This document shows, piece by piece, positions 960-22,227 of a stretch of 27,700 bases of DNA. This stretch comes from Methanotrichaceae archaeon (GTDB taxonomy: Archaea > Halobacteriota > Methanosarcinia > Methanotrichales > Methanotrichaceae), in assembly GCA_013329455.1 (NCBI GenBank), contig DUKF01000227.1, forward strand, positions 8,125-35,824. The letters are read 5' to 3'. Below the pieces are notes generated by a model, which was given only the letters and a program-made list of their open reading frames with translations, was not told the DNA's origin and did not search any database. Made by a program: the position numbers and the translations under genes. Position 1 is the first letter of the stretch; every line of letters begins with the position of its first letter.

Positions 960-1216
960 TTGTATGTGATTGCGGTTGCATGTGATTTGCCGTGACCGCA
1001 TCCCTTCTTTGGTGGTGATCACCGATGGGGTGGCGAAGGGAAAAATTCAAGCCCCAGGGCAGTTAAAAAGTTCATACGATATTTTATTTGTAAATTATTA
1101 TATGAGTGCTTCTGTACTTTATAGCGTTTTTAGGAGTCCTCGCGGTGATTAGATTTTAATAAGAGTGAGTTCGACACAATCTATCAAAATTAGAGAACTG
1201 TGCCGGAGAGTATAAT
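960..1216. other. Intergenic region with a promoter shared with a downstream paralogue
   Basis: No convincing gene is present. A short open frame at 970-1152 has no family features and looks like chance. The last 70 bases carry a promoter element that recurs upstream of the second small membrane protein. Confidence 0.5.
1147..1166 (+). promoter_or_regulatory. Putative archaeal promoter (TATA-like element), copy 1
   Basis: A 20-base stretch containing TTTTAATAAG is identical to 2970-2989. Each copy begins exactly 70 bases before the ATG of its small membrane protein gene. Conservation inside otherwise diverged flanks suggests a box A promoter element. Confidence 0.55.
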
Positions 1217-1642
1217 ATGAAAAGATCAGGCAAAGACGTTCCGACTGGAGTATTCATTCTTGCGGGGCTTGCTTTTATGAGAGGGTTCTACAGCTTATTA
1301 GGTGTGCTCATCCGCATCATAGGTCTTATCCTCTTTCTCTTTAGAGAGGGATTCAAGGCAGATATAATATACATCATAGCGCTTGTTCTGGACTTGTCTT
1401 TTTATGCTGCTATGGGCGGTCTCTTCATCCTTTGTGGTTCATGGCTGATCTCGCTTCAACCCCGAGGCTGGATGCTGGCGACGGTCGGCTCAGGTCTGTA
1501 TCTTCTCCTGGCGCTGGCAAATATTTCCCTCAACGGCAGCTCATATGGGAGATTGACATATGTTGTAATCGCCGCGATAATTTTAGTGTACTTGAATATA
1601 CCGGCTACTAAACGAGTCTTTGAAACTGATGGCATGCCATAA
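1217..1642 (+). CDS. Small membrane protein of unknown family, paralogue 1
   Basis: This 141-residue protein is mostly hydrophobic, with about four predicted membrane helices (roughly residues 11-45, 52-78, 84-105 and 117-133). A soluble-looking loop reading LISLQPRGWMLATVGSG lies at about 85-101, and the end is VYLNIPATKR. The start is ATG just after TATAAT, and the aligned paralogue begins with the same MKR motif, which supports it. It is closely related to the protein at 3040-3453: the QPRGWMLATVGSG loop and the C-terminal NIPATKR are identical. I do not recognise the family. It follows the MFS transporter gene in the same orientation but has its own likely promoter. Confidence 0.7.
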   Translation: MKRSGKDVPTGVFILAGLAFMRGFYSLLGVLIRIIGLILFLFREGFKADIIYIIALVLDLSFYAAMGGLFILCGSWLISLQPRGWMLATVGSGLYLLLALANISLNGSSYGRLTYVVIAAIILVYLNIPATKRVFETDGMP

Positions 1643-1679
1643 GAGCTGATTTTATCTCAAAGGGAGGGGGCAGAGATCG

Positions 1680-1845
1680 CAGCCTTCGTTGTCGTGGTCG
1701 CCTCCTTCGGCCACCCTCCCGCCGCCTGCGGGTCGAGGGCGCCCTGGGATCGATCGGCCGGGGGGATCTGCGGCGTGGGCTCCGGGACGGCGGTGATGAT
1801 GCGCCCGAACGGCACGACGGCGAGGATGGCGGCGGAGGCGCTGAA
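1680..1845 (+). pseudogene. Degenerate fragment of MFS transporter 3' region, copy A
   Basis: Translation gives ASFGHPPAAC followed, after a one-base frame change, by GICGVGSGTAVMMRPNGTT. These align colinearly with SAFFQPPVVKC and MYGVGSGTVEMMRLTGQT of the transporter at 3-959. Compared with copy B, a run of six G instead of GGGAG near 1759-1764 shifts the frame. There is no start codon or full domain, so this is a remnant. Confidence 0.7.
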
Positions 1846-1870
1846 AAACACGAAATTGCCGTTTATTTCG

Positions 1871-1950
1871 TTATTTCATAAGATCCCCGAATTCGTCCGC
1901 CGTCAAGTCCGCATCTTTCAGTATGCTTTTTAGTGAATAGTGCAATAAAA
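1871..1950 (-). pseudogene. C-terminal remnant of a HicA-like toxin
   Basis: Read on the minus strand, this stretch gives SLKSILKDADLTADEFGDL followed by MK and a TAA stop. That is the pattern of HicA C-termini (a GTLRSILKQAG..VEEFLDLL-type ending). The upstream part of the gene is missing. It lies just downstream of an intact hicA but is too different to be part of it, so it looks like the tail of a second, lost HicA gene. Family resemblance is from memory of the motif. Confidence 0.45.
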
Positions 1951-1983
1951 AGCGAAAGAACTCGATTCGTCGGCGTTGTCAGG

Positions 1984-2217
1984 CTAAACCTGATCAAGAA
2001 TTTTTAAGAACTCATCTTTTCCGATCTTGGCATCATGGGCTATCTGCCTCAGTAAGCCCCTGCCCAAATCTTCTCCGCTGTGAATCGGTATCACCGTGAC
2101 TCTGCCATCTGGATGTTTCATCACCAGATGGCTTCCCTTCTGTCTTGCGATCTCAAACCCCAGTTTGCTCAAGGCCTTTACGACCTTCTCCGCCTTAACC
2201 GGTCTCAGCTTCGACAA
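1984..2217 (-). CDS. hicA: HicA-type mRNA interferase toxin
   Basis: The 77-residue product has the whole HicA (YcfA) fold: an N-terminal KAEKVVKALSKLGF helix, then the catalytic strand RQKGSHLVMKHPDGR with the invariant GSH histidine, then VTVIPIHSGEDLGRGLLRQI and a C-terminal helix. HicA toxins are double-stranded-RNA-binding-fold nucleases that cleave mRNA and are neutralised by HicB. I prefer the TTG start at 2217, giving MSKLRPVKAEK, because a G-rich Shine-Dalgarno-like stretch lies 6 bases upstream; a TTG at 2232 is the alternative. It overlaps the end of hicB by 23 bases, so the two are translationally coupled. The gene order is antitoxin first. Confidence 0.85.
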   Translation of the reverse strand: MSKLRPVKAEKVVKALSKLGFEIARQKGSHLVMKHPDGRVTVIPIHSGEDLGRGLLRQIAHDAKIGKDEFLKILDQV

Positions 2218-2410
2218 CCTGGACCCCCACAAACTCCCCAGGAACGATCTCTTTCTCCACCTCGAGGTAGAGTTCTATAGCCTCTTTCGCCCGTTCGATG
2301 AGATCGTCCAGGCTCTTCGCCTGGGTATGGCATCCGGGGAGAGATGGGACGGTGGCGACGTAATATCCGTCTTCGTCCCGCTCGACGAGGACGTTGAACT
2401 TTGCCTTCAT
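2195..2410 (-). CDS. hicB: HicB-type antitoxin (short form)
   Basis: This 71-residue protein starts MKAKFNVLVERDEDGYYVATVPSLPGCHTQAKS, the typical partial RNase H-like HicB fold with the P.LPGC.T motif, followed by a helix (LIERAKEAIELYLE). It should bind and block HicA. It lacks the C-terminal ribbon-helix-helix or HTH domain that many HicB proteins use to bind their own promoter, so autoregulation would need the complex or another factor. The start at 2410 was chosen over upstream in-frame codons because the fold begins there and a promoter lies just upstream. Confidence 0.88.
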   Translation of the reverse strand: MKAKFNVLVERDEDGYYVATVPSLPGCHTQAKSLDDLIERAKEAIELYLEVEKEIVPGEFVGVQVVEAETG

Positions 2411-2412
2411 CT

Positions 2413-2442
2413 CTCGACTATTTTGCGTCGAGATTTTAAATA
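2413..2442 (-). promoter_or_regulatory. hicBA promoter with inverted-repeat operator candidate
   Basis: On the minus strand a TATA-like box (ATTTAAAA, 2434-2442) is followed by a perfect inverted repeat, CTCGAC-N8-GTCGAG (2413-2432), ending 2 bases before the hicB ATG. A repeat between TATA box and start is well placed to act as an operator. Confidence 0.5.
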
Positions 2443-2454
2443 CTTGGTTATTTG

Positions 2455-2620
2455 ATGAAGCCGAGCGCCTCCCATGCGGCCGAGGGCGCCCTGGGATCGA
2501 TCGGCCGGGAGATCTGCGGCGTGGGTTTCGGGACGCTGGAGATGATGCGCCCAACCGGCACGACGACGGGGATGGCGGCGATGGCGCTGATATTCGCCTC
2601 GTGCCTATGGCGGGGCCGAT
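2455..2620 (+). pseudogene. Degenerate fragment of MFS transporter 3' region, copy B
   Basis: One frame reads GALGSIGREICGVGFGTLEM and continues MRPTGTTTGMAAMALIF. This aligns without gaps to VLSSISRDMYGVGSGTVEM and MRLTGQTVSMAVVILIF of the intact transporter. The segment is bounded on the left by the hicBA promoter and has no start. A 28-base block (2482-2509) is identical to 1735-1762 and 3551-3578, so copies A, B and C are closer to each other than to the intact gene. Confidence 0.7.
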
Positions 2621-2787
2621 CTCGTCCTCGATCTCCTTCGCCCGCCCGGGGTTCGCTCGGCGGTCCTCTCGATGTCGCCAGCGGCCCCTTCGGGGTTGAG
2701 GCCCAGCTCCTCCTCGGTCCTAGAAAGTGTGGCTTCGACCCGAAAGAGGCACCGGAACCTGTACTCCTCCGATCAGAGACCCTTCAT
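2600..2787 (-). pseudogene. Possible decayed coding fragment of unknown family
   Basis: On the minus strand a protein-like stretch reads FRVEATLSRTEEELGLNPEG, continuing AAGDIERTAERT, and after a frame change AKEIEDEIGPAIGTR. It begins near an ATG at 2787 but is interrupted by a TGA after MKGL. The charged, helical composition looks real, but I cannot name the family. It lies between MFS fragment B and the promoter of the second small membrane protein. Confidence 0.3.
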
Positions 2788-2969
2788 CTCCGGATTTCCG
2801 TAACGAAACTCGATGGGATGAATCACCATAATCAAATTTCAAAGGAGTGATGAAACCGCGGATGAAAGGAGGTTTTGGTCGCGGGTAGCGGCAGCGGGGT
2901 GGGTTAGGCGATCGGCGTTGATGCGTAATTCATTTATCGGTTTGTAGCTGTTTTTAAGAGTTCTGATAT

Positions 2970-2989
2970 GATTAGATTTTAATAAGAGT
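2970..2989 (+). promoter_or_regulatory. Putative archaeal promoter (TATA-like element), copy 2
   Basis: Identical to 1147-1166 and at the same 70-base distance from the ATG at 3040. See copy 1. Confidence 0.55.
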
Positions 2990-3039
2990 AATATCAAGAT
3001 TATTTACTAAAGTTGGATAACTGGGCCGGTGGCTGCTAT

Positions 3040-3453
3040 ATGAAAAGAAAAGGCAGAGACATTCCAATAGGAGTATCAATCCTTGCTGGATTATTCCTCC
3101 TAATTGGATTCTTTATCGTGTTATTTAGCGTGCTCCTTAACATCATTGTTGTTATTTTAGCTGTTTTTGAAAGACCCGAGGAATATATGGGATTCCTGAT
3201 AGGAGCTATTCTGGCCCTGTCTTTTTATGCTGTTATAGGCGGTATCTTCTTCCTTTGCGGTTCGTGGCTGATCTCGCTTCAGCCCCGAGGCTGGATGCTG
3301 GCCACGGTTGGGTCAGGTCTGTATCTTTTTCTGAAGCTGGCGAATATCTACCTCAGCGGGAGCTTATCTGAGGGATTGTGGCGTGCCATAATTGCAGCGA
3401 TCATTTTGGTTTACCTGAATATACCTGCCACTAAACGGGCCTTTGGACGCTGA
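3040..3453 (+). CDS. Small membrane protein of unknown family, paralogue 2
   Basis: This 137-residue protein is predicted to have about four membrane helices and is the paralogue of the gene at 1217-1642. Shared blocks are the MKR..(R/K)D(I/V)P.GV start, LCGSWLISLQPRGWMLATVG and ILVYLNIPATKR. I placed the start at 3040 rather than the in-frame codon at 3013, because it aligns with the paralogue's start and lies 70 bases from the duplicated promoter, as in copy 1. The family is not recognised. The pair arose by duplication of a unit that also contained the MFS gene, judging by the MFS remnants on both sides. Confidence 0.7.
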   Translation: MKRKGRDIPIGVSILAGLFLLIGFFIVLFSVLLNIIVVILAVFERPEEYMGFLIGAILALSFYAVIGGIFFLCGSWLISLQPRGWMLATVGSGLYLFLKLANIYLSGSLSEGLWRAIIAAIILVYLNIPATKRAFGR

Positions 3454-3504
3454 AGGGCATGTCATAAGACCGATTCTCCCCAAAAAGCGAAGGTCACATC
3501 CCTT

Positions 3505-3809
3505 CGCATTGCGACCGCGGCCTTCGGCCACCCTTCCGCCGCCTGCGGCCGAGGGCGCCCTGGGATCGATCGGCCGGGAGACCTGCGGCGTGGGTTTCGG
3601 GACGGCGGAGATGATGCGCCCGACCAGGTGCGACGGAGGATGAGCGGCAGTGGCGCCGATAATCGCACAGTGCCTGGGGCGGGAGCAAGATTGGTCCGGA
3701 GGGCTGCCCCGCTTTTCTCGACGGCCTCAGGGCGATCTTCGGCGTCGTTTTTATCATCGCTCTTGCGAGCCTGGTCATGGTGGTGCGGTCGGAGAATGTA
3801 TGCGTGTGA
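3505..3809 (+). pseudogene. Degenerate fragment of MFS transporter 3' end, copy C
   Basis: This is the longest remnant. It begins with an ATAAFGHPSAAC-type segment, changes frame, continues GALGSIGRETCGVGFGTAEM, breaks again, and then matches the very end of the intact gene at DNA level. The CCCCGCTTTTCTCGACGGCC region (about 3707) corresponds to 850-868, and the final GCGGTCGGAGAATG...GCGTGTGA corresponds to the last codons of the transporter, including the stop. Several frame changes make it non-functional. Confidence 0.75.
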
Positions 3810-4092
3810 GTTGCGGTGAAAACACGCTTTAGTCCACTCGCGAGACTTAGCCAAAGCTTGGACAATGGTCGTATATGTCGTGACCGATCTAGTTCTCAAT
3901 TTTTAGACGTCTGCAAAGTCAAATTATGGCGGTGCGCCTAGCCGCAAGCAGCGGAGTATTCCGATAAAAGTATAACCTCAAATCTACCACATTCAGCATG
4001 ATCGAGTGATACAAACACAATGTCATTTCGATCTTGGCGGGCACACAACCACAAGTTTCATATTGGGCTAAATTATTAACGCCTAATTAAAT
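3810..4092. other. Intergenic region, no gene seen
   Basis: Composition shifts here from G+C-rich to A+T-rich. I see no open frame with family features. An A+T-rich TAAATTATTA stretch near 4069-4078 could be the promoter of the following protease gene, although it lies close to the ATG. Confidence 0.4.
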
Positions 4093-12853: not shown

Positions 12854-14323
12854 TTACGATCTCTTTGGCACCATATCGATCATATCCCATATCTTTTCCA
12901 TGTCCAGATACTTCTCGGTGGCAGAAGCCAGCTCATCGTACCCTTCGCCTGCGAGGGCCGATCTTCGGATCAGGTTCTTCCTTGCGTAGAGGTAATCCAA
13001 AAAGGCGTCTTTGAAGTTCTCGTTCTGGAAGATACCGTGAAGGTAAGTTCCTATGACGAGCCCCTCGCCACCAACGGCGCCGTCGTCCCCGAAGGCGGGG
13101 GGATCCTGGGAGGTCGTCTGGCCCATGTGAATCTCGTAACCCCAGACCTTATCCCCCTTTATCGGCCCAAGGATCGGGCCGTCTCCGGTCACGGTCTTCT
13201 CCACCTGGACGGTCCTTTTCTCGTACCGATCGAACCGTGTCTCTAAGTCCAAGAGGCCCAGGCCGGGTATCGAGTCGGTGGTGTTCTCGATCCCCAGATC
13301 GACGATGTTCCTTCCCAGGATCTGGTAGCCGCCGCAGATCCCAAGGACCGGAACGCCCTCGTCTCGAAGGGCCAGAATCTCCCGATCGGTCCCCCTCGTC
13401 CTCATATCCTCGAGGTCTGAGACGGTGTTCTTGGTTCCGGGGATTATGACGGCATCTGGCCTACCAAGAGGCTGGCCGGGGCTGACGTACCGGACCCTCG
13501 CCTCCCGCTCCAGGGGTTCAAAGTCCGTAAAGTTCGATATTCTCGTAAGCCTGATTACGGCGATCTCGACCCCCTTGCCCCCCTCGCCACCGCCCCTCTT
13601 GTCGCCCAGGGAGACGGAATCCTCGCTAGGCAGGTTGAGGTCGAGATAGGGCATGACGCCGAGGACCGGTACATCGGTCAGCTTCTCCAGCATGTCGAGA
13701 CCGGGCTCGAGAATCGCCGGATCGCCCCGGAACTTGTTGATCACAAGGCCCTTTACGAGGGGCCTGATATCGGGCGGAAGAAGCTTTATCGTCCCGTAGA
13801 GGCTCGCAAAGACCCCGCCCCTCTCGATATCGCCCACAAGGATTATGGGTGCCTGGAGCTTTGATGCGACGTAGATGTTGGCGATGTCCCGATCGTAGAG
13901 GTTGATCTCGGCACCCCCGCCAGCGCCCTCGACGACGATGTAGTCAAACTTGTGCTCAAGCTCCTCGAGGGCCCAGTCCACTACCACCTTCATCTCCTCG
14001 ATCCCCTGGTAGTACTCCTCGGCGGACTTGTCGGCTATGGGCACGCCGAAGACGATCACCTGGCTGGTCCGATCGCCCTTCGGCTTGAGGAGGATCGGGT
14101 TCATGATCTCCGTCGGCTCGACCCCTGCAGCCCAGGCCTGGACCGCCTGGGCGATCCCCATCTCCTTTCCCTCGGAGGTGACCCAAGAGTTGAGGCTCAT
14201 GTTCTGGGACTTGAAGGGGGCGACCTTCAGACCCCGGTTTTTGATGATTCTGCATAGGGCTGCAACGATAGTGCTCTTTCCGGAGTGGGAGGTGGTTCCG
14301 AGGACCACGATGAATCTGGTCAT
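12854..14323 (-). CDS. cobQ: Cobyric acid synthase (adenosylcobyrate amidation)
   Basis: The 489-residue enzyme amidates adenosylcobyrinic acid a,c-diamide at four positions in cobamide synthesis, a pathway methanogens need for their methyltransferases. The N-terminal domain has the P-loop GTTSHSGKST and the CobQ/CbiP signature KSQNMSLNSWVT...EMGIAQAVQA. The C-terminal class I glutamine amidotransferase domain has the catalytic Cys in LGICGGYQILG and the histidine in GTYLHGIFQN. The ATG at 14323 has a GGGAAGG site just upstream; an in-frame TTG eight codons earlier is less likely. It is convergent with the DUF5320-type gene. A degraded copy of its N-terminal region lies at about 16234-16441. 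Confidence 0.95.
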   Translation of the reverse strand: MTRFIVVLGTTSHSGKSTIVAALCRIIKNRGLKVAPFKSQNMSLNSWVTSEGKEMGIAQAVQAWAAGVEPTEIMNPILLKPKGDRTSQVIVFGVPIADKSAEEYYQGIEEMKVVVDWALEELEHKFDYIVVEGAGGGAEINLYDRDIANIYVASKLQAPIILVGDIERGGVFASLYGTIKLLPPDIRPLVKGLVINKFRGDPAILEPGLDMLEKLTDVPVLGVMPYLDLNLPSEDSVSLGDKRGGGEGGKGVEIAVIRLTRISNFTDFEPLEREARVRYVSPGQPLGRPDAVIIPGTKNTVSDLEDMRTRGTDREILALRDEGVPVLGICGGYQILGRNIVDLGIENTTDSIPGLGLLDLETRFDRYEKRTVQVEKTVTGDGPILGPIKGDKVWGYEIHMGQTTSQDPPAFGDDGAVGGEGLVIGTYLHGIFQNENFKDAFLDYLYARKNLIRRSALAGEGYDELASATEKYLDMEKIWDMIDMVPKRS

Positions 14324-17055: not shown

Positions 17056-18027
17056 TTAATAACTTCTGCTTATCATGTAGTCGGCCAGCTCCAGCAGAAG
17101 GGCTTTGGCGTCGGAATCGTCCAGAACGTCGAGGGCCTCTTTCCCCTCACGCACGAGGCTCACGGCCTTGGACCGGGCGTAGCCTATCGACCCGCTGGCT
17201 CTGAGGACTTCGAGGGCGGCCTCGATCTCCTCGGAGGTCGCGTTCTTCTTGCCGAAGATCTCAACTTTGGCGCCGCTCTCCATGGCGTGGATCATGATCA
17301 GGGTCTTCTTCCCCTCAGCGAGGTCCCCGCCCCTCGGCTTTCCGAGCACTTCCATCGGGGCGGTGAGGTCAAGGACGTCGTCCTGGATCTGAAAGGCCAT
17401 CCCCACCAGGCGGCCGAACCTCTCGAGCCCCTCGGCTTGCTGTGCTGGTGCGCCGCTGAGGCGGGCGCCCATCCAGGCAGAAGCCCCATAGAGGACCCCC
17501 GTCTTCTTCTCGATCATCTCGAGGTACTCGTCCTCGCTGACCTGGTCCCTCCTCTAAAACTCCATGTCCAACCACTGCCCCTCGCAGATGGCGGCGCAAG
17601 TTCCGGCCAGCATCTTCACCGATGCGACCATGTCCTCGGGACTGGGAACATCAGCGGCCGCCAGGATCTCGAAAGCCTTGGAATAGAGGGTGTCCCCGGC
17701 CAAGATCGCCCCGGCCTCGTCCCACTTCACGTGGACCGCGGGCCTTCCCCGCCTGGTCTCGGCGTTGTCCATTATGTCGTCGTGGATCAGGGTGAAGTTA
17801 TGGACCAGCTCTATCGACACGGCAGCCGGGACGACGACCTTCGGATCCCCCCCCACAGCCTCAGCAGCCATGAGAAGCATGCTCGGACGCAGCCTTTTTC
17901 CCCCAGCATCCACCAGATGCCTTCCGGCCTCGTAGAGCTCCTTCGGATGAACCACCGGCAAGAGATCCCCGATGGCCCCGGATATCATATCAGCGCGCCT
18001 CGTCAGCTCCTCGTCAAGCATCACCAT
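17056..18027 (-). CDS. idsA: Geranylgeranyl diphosphate synthase (IdsA) with an in-frame TAG
   Basis: Two abutting frames together encode a complete 323-codon polyprenyl synthase, which builds the C20 chain for archaeal membrane lipids. The first part (start ATG 18027 after GGAGGCGTGAT) carries GGKRLRPSMLLMAAEA and the first Asp-rich motif LIHDDIMDNAETRRGRP. The second carries FQIQDDVLDLTAPM and GGDLAEGKKTL. They are in the same frame, separated only by TAG at 17554-17556, where relatives have an acidic residue or Gln (...DMEF-TAG-RRDQVSEDEYLEM). GAG to TAG is one substitution. Since the enzyme should be essential, a sequence error, readthrough or a very recent mutation are the options. The gene follows rnj by 30 bases. 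Confidence 0.9.
17554..17556 (-). other. In-frame TAG codon within idsA
   Basis: TAG interrupts the idsA frame at codon 158, between the two Asp-rich motifs, with the frame preserved on both sides. TAG is a normal stop for hicA, mfnD, the LysE gene, the GT2 gene, MEMO, rpoN and rpoK here, so general reassignment is unlikely. Confidence 0.9.
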
Positions 18028-18057: not shown

Positions 18058-19401
18058 TCAGGGGAGGACCAGCTGCTGACCGTTCCTCATTATGTGGAAG
18101 GTGTAGCCGAGCTCGTAGCCCGTATCCTCGGCCATGGAGAGGTACTTGCCGTGACTCTCGAAGGTTCCGTGGCTGGGTATCACGTGCTCCGGATTTATCA
18201 TCCTCAAAAGCTCCCAGTGGTCCTCGACGCAGGCGTGTCCCGAGACGTGGATGTTGTCGTAAACACTCGCGCCCCTCATCTTCAGCTTCGTCTCCACGAT
18301 GTGGCGGCTGGCCTTGTTGAGCGGCTGAGGTATGATCCCGGCACTGAAGACGACCTTGTCACCAGACTCGAGCTGATAATCGGTATCGCCGCTGGCAACC
18401 CGGCTCAAGACGGCGCCAGGTTCGCCCTGGTGGCCGGTCATGATCGGGAGGTACTTGTCCTTTCCCTCCTGCATCATCCTCTTGAAGAACTTGTCGACGC
18501 TCTTTCTCCTGCCGTACACCGGGAGGTTGTCGTCGGACTTGGGTGCGTACCCAACTCTCTTCGCTGTTCCCCAGTACTTCTCCATCGATCTGCCCAAAAG
18601 GACCGGCTTTCTTCCCATCTCATGGGCAGCCTCAATTATCGCCCTGATTCTGGCTATGTGGGACGAGAAGGTGGTCACCAAAACCCCCGACTTCGTCTCT
18701 TCAGTCCCCATCAGAACGTCCCAGACGAGGTCCTTTGCTATCTGCTCCGACGGGGTCTTTCCTGATACTCCAGCGTTGGTGGTCTCAGTTATCAGAGCCA
18801 AAACCCCCTCCTTCTCCAGCTTTTTCAACCTGGCAAAGTCAGGAGGCGGCCCCAGGGTCGGATTTCTGTCCATCTTGAAGTCGTTGGCGTAGAGGATCAC
18901 CCCTTTGGGGGTGTGAATGGCTGCGAAGACGCAGTCGACTATGCTGTGCTGAACCCTAATGAACTCCAGCTCGATGTCAGGCGCTATCTGCCTGCTCTTG
19001 CCGGCGTTCATGGTTATGACCTCGTTCTTCGTCCCATGAAGCCTCTCAGACTCGAACTCCTGTCTGATCAAATCTGCGGTAAAAGGGGTTCCGAAGATGG
19101 GTGCCCTGTACTTGTGAGCAAGCTTTGAGATCGCACCTATGTGGTCCAAATGGCCGTGAGTGCAGGCTATCGCCCTCACCCTCCCGTCCACGTCCTTCAT
19201 GATGCTGTCGTTGGGGATCGCCCCCATGGATATCAGCTCGGAGGGGCGGAGCCTCTCTACGTCTGTATCCTCGTGTATCTGAACTCTGTCCAATCGGAGA
19301 CCCATGTCCATTATCACTATGTCATGACCGATTTTGATCGCGGTCATGTTCCGTCCTATCTCTTCGTAGCCTCCGATCGCTACAATTCCAATATCCTTCA
19401 T
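18058..19401 (-). CDS. rnj: Archaeal RNase J (beta-CASP ribonuclease)
   Basis: The 447-residue protein is a metallo-beta-lactamase/beta-CASP nuclease of the RNase J type, a 5'-to-3' exoribonuclease acting in RNA decay. The zinc motif is THGHLDHIGA (residues 81-90, ligands His82, His84, Asp86, His87). Other motifs are YANDFKMD, the ETTNAG motif, the MTGHQGEPGAVLSR beta-CASP segment and the late HVSGHACVEDHWELL and VIPSHGTFE motifs. The bacterial C-terminal domain is absent, as expected for archaea. The ATG overlaps the fni stop by 4 bases (ATGA), and idsA follows. Linkage of rnj with isoprenoid genes is a recurrent euryarchaeal arrangement. Confidence 0.93.
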   Translation of the reverse strand: MKDIGIVAIGGYEEIGRNMTAIKIGHDIVIMDMGLRLDRVQIHEDTDVERLRPSELISMGAIPNDSIMKDVDGRVRAIACTHGHLDHIGAISKLAHKYRAPIFGTPFTADLIRQEFESERLHGTKNEVITMNAGKSRQIAPDIELEFIRVQHSIVDCVFAAIHTPKGVILYANDFKMDRNPTLGPPPDFARLKKLEKEGVLALITETTNAGVSGKTPSEQIAKDLVWDVLMGTEETKSGVLVTTFSSHIARIRAIIEAAHEMGRKPVLLGRSMEKYWGTAKRVGYAPKSDDNLPVYGRRKSVDKFFKRMMQEGKDKYLPIMTGHQGEPGAVLSRVASGDTDYQLESGDKVVFSAGIIPQPLNKASRHIVETKLKMRGASVYDNIHVSGHACVEDHWELLRMINPEHVIPSHGTFESHGKYLSMAEDTGYELGYTFHIMRNGQQLVLP

Positions 19402-20486
19402 CTCGACATCTCTCTGTGAATCGCAAACTTTTTCGTGTCAAACCCTCTCTGCTCCAGGATCTCTCTCGTCCTTCCAAAAACGATGATCCGCGCAGACCGA
19501 AGGTCCGATATGTCCTTCGAGGCGGTCAGGAACATGGCTGTCCTGAAGGCTCTCTTGTAACCTCTGAGAGCCTCAGCCACCTCGGAAGATTCTTTCGTTG
19601 CAGGGGCCAGGAATGGCAGAGCTGCCCCAGCCAAACTCGCACCCAGGGCGATGCTCTTTGCCACATCGATCCCGCTTCGAACCCCTCCGGAGGATATGAC
19701 CTTCGCCCCGGCAGAGGCGCATTCCACAACGCTCACTGGCGTTGGAACCCCCCAGTTCAAGAATAACCTTCCCATAATGGCGGACTCCGGATCCCCCCGT
19801 TCCTCCGCACGGTAGGCCTCGACCCCAGACCAGCTGGTCCCGCCCAAGCCCCCAACGTCGATTATCTCCACTCCCGCCCCCATAAGGGCCAAGGCATCCT
19901 CTCCAGATATCCCGGCCCCCGTCTCTTTGGCGATGATCGGAACACTCCTGTCGGAGGCAGACCTGATCGCCTCGATCGCCCCCCGACCTTCGGTCTCCCC
20001 CTCCGGCTGGATGCTCTCCTGGAGAAAGTTCAGGTGGACCGCTATGGCATCGGCATCGATCATCTCCGCCAGCCGGTCGACGACTTCGGGACCTTCCCTC
20101 TGGAGCTGCACCGCCCCGATGTTTCCGACGATCGGAATTTTCGGTGCTGCATCCCTCACCGCCGAGAAGGTCTCCTCGACCTCTGGGCTTTCGAGAGCAG
20201 CCCTCTGGGACCCGACGCCCATGGCCACCCCCACCTCCTGGGCAGCGAGGGCCAAATTCACGTTGATCTCCTTGGTGTCGGGGTGTCCCCCCGTCATCCC
20301 GGAGATCATCAAGGGAATGGCGAGATCCTTCCCCAGAAATTGGCACCTTGTATCTATCTCATCAGCGTCGATGCCCGGCAAGGCTCTGTGGACTAAAGCG
20401 AGGTCGTCGAAGGGCCTGCACCTCCCCTCTACTTTCTTTTCCAGACAGATCCTTATGTGGTCGAGCTTTCTCTTGCCTGTGGTCAT
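19398..20486 (-). CDS. fni: Type 2 isopentenyl-diphosphate isomerase
   Basis: The 362-residue FMN- and NAD(P)H-dependent enzyme interconverts IPP and DMAPP, the two C5 units for isoprenoid synthesis. Family landmarks are the N-terminal RKLDHIRICLEKKVEG, PLMISGMTGGH, the MGVGSQRAALE flavin/substrate segment, VHLNFLQESIQPEGE, KETGAGIS, the VGGLGGTSWSGVEAYR motif and the phosphate-binding SSGGVRSGIDVAKSI. Length is normal. It is joined to ipk upstream and rnj downstream by 4-base ATGA overlaps, so the three are translationally coupled. Confidence 0.96.
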   Translation of the reverse strand: MTTGKRKLDHIRICLEKKVEGRCRPFDDLALVHRALPGIDADEIDTRCQFLGKDLAIPLMISGMTGGHPDTKEINVNLALAAQEVGVAMGVGSQRAALESPEVEETFSAVRDAAPKIPIVGNIGAVQLQREGPEVVDRLAEMIDADAIAVHLNFLQESIQPEGETEGRGAIEAIRSASDRSVPIIAKETGAGISGEDALALMGAGVEIIDVGGLGGTSWSGVEAYRAEERGDPESAIMGRLFLNWGVPTPVSVVECASAGAKVISSGGVRSGIDVAKSIALGASLAGAALPFLAPATKESSEVAEALRGYKRAFRTAMFLTASKDISDLRSARIIVFGRTREILEQRGFDTKKFAIHREMSR

Positions 20487-21241
20487 ATTCTACCCTCCAC
20501 CAGGGTTCCCACTCTCTCGCCCATCAAGATCCTCTCGATCTGACCCGCCTTTTCGGCGTTGAATATCTGGGACTCGACGCCCTGATCGGCCAAATCCAAG
20601 AGCTCCTCGAGTTTTCCCCTCATGCCGCCGGTGACGTCCACCCCGGCCGACGCTCCCAGCTCCGAGCCGATTTTTGGAAGGGCCTCTCGCCTCACCTCGG
20701 CCAGGACCTCACCTCTGAAGATTACACCGTCAACGGCCGTTCCCAGGGCCACGATTTCTGGCTTGAGGGTCCTCGCCAAATGGGATACGAGCTGGTCGCC
20801 AGAGACGATCCCAGCGCCTATTGACCTGTCCATGGCGACGTCGCCGTGGAGGACCGGGACGAGACCATTATTCACCATCTCGATGACGGGTTCGGTTTCC
20901 ATGGCATCTATCCTCCCATCTCTCAGAAGGGTGCAGCTCAGAGGGTGGACAGGGACCGGGCGTGACCCCGCCCTTCTGAGGCTCTCGACCACGAGATCGT
21001 TCAGCCTGACTACCGACCTATGAGTCTCCAGGACCCCTTCGGGGCTGAACCTCTCGGCGAGGTTGTACTTTTTCGCGTGGATGTGGCCGAAGGACCCCGC
21101 ACCGTGTACCAGTATTAGACCAGACCCGTGCCTGGCGATCTCGGTTGCGATCCTCTCGATCTCTTCCATCCTCGCCGATTCCAGCCTTGTCTTGTCGGTC
21201 AGGACGCTCCCGCCGATCTTCAGAATTTTGATCTCGGTCAT
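20483..21241 (-). CDS. ipk: Isopentenyl phosphate kinase
   Basis: The 252-residue amino-acid-kinase-fold enzyme phosphorylates isopentenyl phosphate to IPP, the last step of the archaeal mevalonate route. It shows ILKIGGSVLTDK, the LVHGAGSFGHIHAKKYNL segment with the family-specific histidine, VHGDVAMD-like VLHGDVAMDRSIGAGIVSGDQ, and the late VDVTGGMRGKLEEL motif. The ATG at 21241 overlaps the mvk stop (ATGA) and aligns with the family start, so the longer in-frame extension to 21280 was rejected. With mvk and fni it forms a compact pathway block. Confidence 0.95.
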   Translation of the reverse strand: MTEIKILKIGGSVLTDKTRLESARMEEIERIATEIARHGSGLILVHGAGSFGHIHAKKYNLAERFSPEGVLETHRSVVRLNDLVVESLRRAGSRPVPVHPLSCTLLRDGRIDAMETEPVIEMVNNGLVPVLHGDVAMDRSIGAGIVSGDQLVSHLARTLKPEIVALGTAVDGVIFRGEVLAEVRREALPKIGSELGASAGVDVTGGMRGKLEELLDLADQGVESQIFNAEKAGQIERILMGERVGTLVEGRI

Positions 21242-22227
21242 CTTTCGTCCATGGGATCTTCGAGCCTCAGCCCCTGGCATCCCGTGACCACGGAGAAAGG
21301 CTCACCCCTCGCCTGGGTTATGGCGGTCATCACCCTCAGAACGTCCTCGGGATCTGTTCGCGGCAGGGCTATCATGCATCCTCCTCCGCCCGCACCTGTC
21401 AGCTTTGCGCCAAAAGCTCGGCCTGCGCCCCGGGAGGCGTAGACCAGCTCGGAGAGCTCCCGGGTCCCGACACCGATCGACTCTAGAAGGCCGTGGTTAG
21501 CGTTCAATAGCCCCCCCAGATCTTCCAGACGTCTCTCTCTGATGCAGTCCGGCGCACGCTTCGATATCTTTCCTATCGCCCGGAATATGGGATCGACGAT
21601 CTCTGGATATTTGGCCCTGAAGCTCTGAACCTTCTCGACCTCGGCCCGGGTGTCGTGAGGTCTGCCCGAAAACCCCACAACCAGTTTGATCTCTGGAAGA
21701 TCGATCGACCTTGCCGACCCTTCGACGAGCTGATACCCGCCAAAGGTGGCAAGAGCGGTGTCTGTGGGCGAGCCGTGCCCCTCCTGGACGGACTTCTCTA
21801 TCTTGTGGGCCTCTTTTGCGATCTCGTCCGCAGACAAATCCAGCTCCAGGTGACGGCTCAAGGCCCCAAGAGTGGCGACGATAACGGAAGCTGAGGACCC
21901 AAGGCCCGAGGCCGGAGGTATCTCCGACTCCACGGTGATCCTGAGATCTCTTGCCCCAAATTCTTTCAAAACTGCGGAAACGTACCTTGTAGCATGAACG
22001 GCGCCTTCGCTGACATCTTTCGTCAGAACCGCGCCGGTTAGGGGGTCCAAAGTTATCCCCTCCAGTGTCATCCAAAGGTCCGGGGCTGATATCTCAAGCC
22101 TTCCCGGCAAGTCCTCGATGCTGGCCCGAACCCTCAGATCCACCGCCGCGCCCAAAGCGGATGCTCCGGAGACAACGGCGTGTTCCCCAAAGAGGATCAC
22201 CTTGCCGGGAGCAGTGGCGGATGTCAG
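21238..22227 (-). CDS. mvk: Mevalonate kinase, apparently starting at CTG
   Basis: The GHMP-family kinase phosphorylates mevalonate. Motifs are the N-terminal APGKVILFGEHAVV, the ATP-binding PPASGLGSSASVIVATLGAL and the C-terminal KLTGAGGGGCMIALP. The only ATG/GTG/TTG near the N-terminus is the GTG that encodes Val of GKV, which would remove APGK. Upstream in frame there is CTG at 22227, giving MTSATAPGKVILFGEH, and it lies 7 bases after GGAGG (22236-22240) positioned right at the MEMO stop. I therefore annotate CTG as the start, giving 329 residues, normal for the family. A GTG start at 22200 is the conservative alternative. Confidence 0.92.
   Translation of the reverse strand: MTSATAPGKVILFGEHAVVSGASALGAAVDLRVRASIEDLPGRLEISAPDLWMTLEGITLDPLTGAVLTKDVSEGAVHATRYVSAVLKEFGARDLRITVESEIPPASGLGSSASVIVATLGALSRHLELDLSADEIAKEAHKIEKSVQEGHGSPTDTALATFGGYQLVEGSARSIDLPEIKLVVGFSGRPHDTRAEVEKVQSFRAKYPEIVDPIFRAIGKISKRAPDCIRERRLEDLGGLLNANHGLLESIGVGTRELSELVYASRGAGRAFGAKLTGAGGGGCMIALPRTDPEDVLRVMTAITQARGEPFSVVTGCQGLRLEDPMDER

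Follow-up and report, generated by a model that had tools for sequence, protein, structure and literature searches.

The window, that is, the whole stretch of 27,700 nucleotides that was analysed, lies on a contig of 35,824 bases in a draft genome of 2.17 Mb (273 contigs, 81.5% complete). Its minus strand carries an idsA-like gene for a polyprenyl diphosphate synthase, interrupted by a single TAG, and next to it on the same strand lie four uninterrupted genes, three of which are matched by isoprenoid-pathway models (Table 1). The sequence-only reading had noticed an in-frame TAG in an otherwise intact gene; this proved correct, and the strand, which had not been named there, is the minus strand, where the TAG occupies codon 158 of 323 and is the sole internal stop in the frame. 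Elsewhere in the window, positions 970-4000 hold short ORFs only.

Table 1 Features of the interrupted gene and its surroundings, and stops found ahead of open ORFs. Positions refer to the window unless a locus or contig label is given.
Feature	Position	Strand	Remarks
idsA-like polyprenyl (GGPP-type) diphosphate synthase gene	17056..18027	minus	323 codons and terminal stop, one interruption
In-frame TAG, codon 158	17554..17556	minus	CTA on the plus strand
Upstream half, 157 codons	17557..18027	minus	contains first Asp-rich motif
Downstream open frame, 153 codons	17056..17517	minus	from internal ATG; contains second Asp-rich motif
RNase J family gene	18058..19401	minus	uninterrupted; TIGR00649 over cut-off
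Type 2 isopentenyl-diphosphate isomerase gene	19398..20486	minus	uninterrupted; TIGR02151 over cut-off
Isopentenyl phosphate kinase gene	20483..21280	minus	uninterrupted; NF040647 over cut-off
Mevalonate kinase gene	21238..22200	minus	uninterrupted; TIGR00549 over cut-off
Second polyprenyl synthase gene, 285 aa	L002:663-1520 (G000 contig C203)		PF00348; in 9/9 genus genomes
Pre-start stops	L127 1497; L158 4783, 5717, 5738; L167 13800; C181 29428		

The reading frame is preserved on both sides of the TAG, as had been claimed from the sequence: in tblastn comparisons with the orthologues of four congeners, the frame aligns across the site with 84-89% identity and a single stop. Both Asp-rich motifs, which we take to be the catalytic ones, can be recognised by eye in the translation (HDDIMDN before the stop and QDDVLDL after it), confirming the earlier statement that they are intact. 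When the frame was read through the stop, PF00348 matched it with 249.3 bits against a curated cut-off of 27, which rules out a chance ORF. None of the NCBIfam equivalog models names the exact product, as all score below their cut-offs (gerfarn_diphsyn, 361 bits against 560; IdsA_Meth, 357 against 468; GGPP_syn, 276 against 500). The solved chains that match best, 5jfq and 1wy0, are both named geranylgeranyl pyrophosphate synthetase. The gene resembles the IdsA/GGPP synthase type (PF00348) of Methanothrix and Methanocrinis in its identity to the congeners, in both Asp-rich motifs and in its isoprenoid-gene neighbours, and differs from that type in having a single TAG at the position that is Glu in the listed homologues.

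We then examined the site in relatives. In an alignment of the best 120 of 7963 homologues, which includes the intact form P0003 described below and omits P0001, an antisense translation, Glu occupies position 158 in all 120 sequences, and the flanking residues (DMEF-x-RRDQ) are conserved. The expectation that relatives would have an acidic residue or Gln here thus held for Glu, and neither Asp nor Gln occurs among these sequences. The orthologue is uninterrupted in all eight congeners, with 80-89% identity to the window protein, and none of them has a TAG at the site. At the DNA level, the site is legible in four of the eight congener loci, each of which shows a Glu codon.

The protein search also returned an intact counterpart. 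P0003 has 323 residues, with Glu at position 158, and is identical to the window protein at the other 322 positions; its PF00348 score is 249.8 bits (cut-off 27). It is recorded on two contigs, which may come from separate samples or be alternative assemblies of the same reads, and the longest of them has 43,838 bases, compared with 35,824 for the contig carrying the window; the intact version is therefore present in another assembled contig. A search with the 157-residue upstream half gave ten proteins at E <= 1e-60, the best of them 87% identical, and no near-identical truncated record in a database clustered at 90% identity, where such a record might be hidden in another cluster. With regard to the provenance of P0003, the neighbouring RNase J protein used as a query had a best match of 96% and gave no lead; the plasmid collection gave no match.

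If the TAG were a sense codon, pyrrolysine would be the obvious candidate, and the sequence-only reading had allowed for it should the genome carry the pyl genes. The frame does continue open past the TAG, as in the pyrrolysine TAG genes of Methanosarcina and others, which likewise have an in-frame TAG with the frame open on both sides, and in a genome that is 81.5% complete the required genes may be missing from the assembly. However, the PylS C-terminal model (TIGR02367), PylD and PylB each had no match over cut-off in any of the nine genus genomes, seven of which are at least 90% complete, whereas the same three models were all over cut-off in Methanosarcina acetivorans. The PylS N-terminal model (TIGR03912) likewise had no match over cut-off in the genome itself. 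The Pyl models gave sub-cut-off matches only, and those of PylS fall within open frames 454-551 aa long that presumably encode different class II synthetases. A CTA anticodon is absent from all 30 reported tRNA matches. One CTA tRNA predicted by ARAGORN in intron mode, at L123 in the 517-kb sample described below, was judged false: it falls within an intact MBL-fold ORF of 249 aa and has no Rfam tRNA match. Three shuffles of the sample produced 0, 0 and 1 false tRNA. At L264:1500-1593 (contig C39), intron mode labelled a tRNA-SeC (tca), which may be another intron-bearing tRNA. In addition, this genome uses TAG as a functional stop. Among the 114 genes that passed a nearby-end filter out of the 160 orthologue pairs of the same sample, 22 terminate with TAG, with up to 268 open codons behind it, 73 with TGA and 19 with TAA. 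Unlike the Methanosarcina-type genes, then, the present case combines an absence of PylS, PylD and PylB matches over cut-off throughout the nine genomes with a site that is not conserved as TAG and with TAG serving as an ordinary terminator, and decoding as pyrrolysine is extremely improbable. Just as hard to credit is a real TAG, fixed in the strain, that an unknown suppressor or efficient readthrough decodes, so that a functional prenyl diphosphate synthase is made although the archaeon lacks pyrrolysine; if real, this would be a core lipid gene in which a stop codon is decoded in the absence of pyrrolysine.

Two further explanations would accept the stop as real and have the cell manage without decoding it. 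The product might consist of two cooperating half-proteins, made by terminating at the TAG and starting again from the ATG at 17517, the first start codon past the stop. The two halves are open frames with one Asp-rich motif apiece, but restarting there would omit the 12 residues that follow the stop, which belong to a stretch aligned without breaks in the printed homologues, and the existence of the intact P0003 also argues against it. This option, raised from the sequence, found no positive evidence and has scarcely any likelihood. Alternatively, the second prenyl synthase might make up for the loss of idsA; it is encoded on contig C203 and is the other PF00348 protein, uninterrupted. It is about 34% identical, however, and accompanies an intact idsA in all eight congeners; its best NCBIfam match, to the geranylfarnesyl diphosphate synthase model, is below cut-off and suggests another product. 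The protein is more plausible as an enzyme in its own right than as a spare, which makes the suggested backup copy doubtful, and we regard cover from this gene as very improbable, if marginally less so than the half-proteins. By eye, the C203 synthase has the second Asp-rich motif DDLNE, and a 387-aa ORF overlapping the end of its gene looks like a radical SAM protein.

The TAG is best explained by an error in the consensus or, otherwise, by a null allele present in a minority, with most likely no special biology (probability roughly 0.93). Four options had been left unranked in the sequence-only reading (sequence error, readthrough, half-proteins and a backup copy); among them, the existence of the intact and otherwise identical P0003 now favors a sequence error (or a rare broken variant), and pyrrolysine is unsupported. 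Under either an error or a variant, other data should contain an intact version with no further difference, and P0003 is one. The TAG would probably be a single-base error of the draft metagenome assembly; we infer a wrong base in the contig rather than one truly present in a rare strain. Failing that, the sampled population may contain it as a minority null allele. That the gene is truly broken in part or all of the population, as a null allele or a young pseudogene, fits a single clean substitution-type change in a frame that is otherwise intact, and strain mixtures are common in metagenomes. Against it stand the intact protein P0003, otherwise identical, and the consideration that a loss in the main strain would hit archaeal lipid synthesis, for which the paralogue is no evident substitute; we consider a truly broken gene unlikely, although well ahead of any form of decoding. 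The case for an error or a minority allele also agrees with what is generally known of isolated nonsense codons in draft metagenome assemblies, arising from consensus error or strain variation: the present TAG resembles them in the single base changed, in the intact counterpart on other contigs and in its setting in a fragmented draft with other small defects. The working gene of the organism most likely encodes a normal, intact prenyl diphosphate synthase that carries Glu at position 158. When a single stop appears in a gene presumed essential and the genome is a fragmented metagenome assembly, other assemblies should be compared before readthrough is proposed.

The background of small defects in the draft was estimated from 60 other contigs together with the window's own contig (516,809 bases), compared with 1.24 Mb of the congener G005. 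The final screen covered 160 orthologue pairs (42,578 codons) and returned 14 stops (3 TAG, 4 TAA and 7 TGA) and 3 frame breaks. One of the 14 is the TAG in idsA, and no other clearly conserved gene among these pairs was found to contain an internal stop. Six of the 14 stops lie ahead of the start codon of an ORF that has no interruption itself (Table 1); one of them, on the window's contig, corresponds to about position 21304 of the window, upstream of the ATG at 21280. Two stops in L179 (9952 and 10492) are antisense to an open 361-aa ORF; the codon-position filter of the final screen lets antisense frames with coinciding third positions slip through, as at these two sites. Four others (in L177, in L182, at L124 4876 and at L179 5312) fall within the last 9 codons of the reference ORF. 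At about L179 13580 (contig C215), a conserved stretch has a TGA where G005 is open, and neither strand there holds an ORF of 90 aa.

Two of the three frame breaks are one-base breaks in genes that are open in G005, namely a subtilase with a P-domain (L163, about 2350-2372; G000 contig C140) and an alkaline phosphatase (L124, about 14120-14133; contig C45), and these could be real pseudogenes. The third, at about L160 3268 (contig C125), consists of two N inside a conserved gene that by eye is a seryl-tRNA synthetase, Pfam returning nothing in the fragment. N bases also mark a break in a conserved ORF at about L129 3119 (contig C70), and the N bases at both loci are probably scaffold gaps. Together, the frame breaks and N bases look like small defects of a thin draft, with no preference for TAG.

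The screen had two earlier versions. One that chose the longest ORF (104 ORFs, 15 stops and 8 frame breaks) was set aside, since it had picked up antisense ORFs and overlooked idsA. An intermediate version returned 20 stops (9 TGA, 7 TAA and 4 TAG) and 6 frame breaks in 161 ORFs; its breaks in L129, L117, L193 and L168 were not kept in the final screen, and L117 proved to be an open 333-aa ORF. A control taken around idsA in G004 and G007 (80 kb), too small for a comparison of rates, comprised 33 ORFs with 6 stops and 0 frame breaks; the stops (5 TGA and 1 TAG) are all in G007 and in minus-strand reference ORFs.
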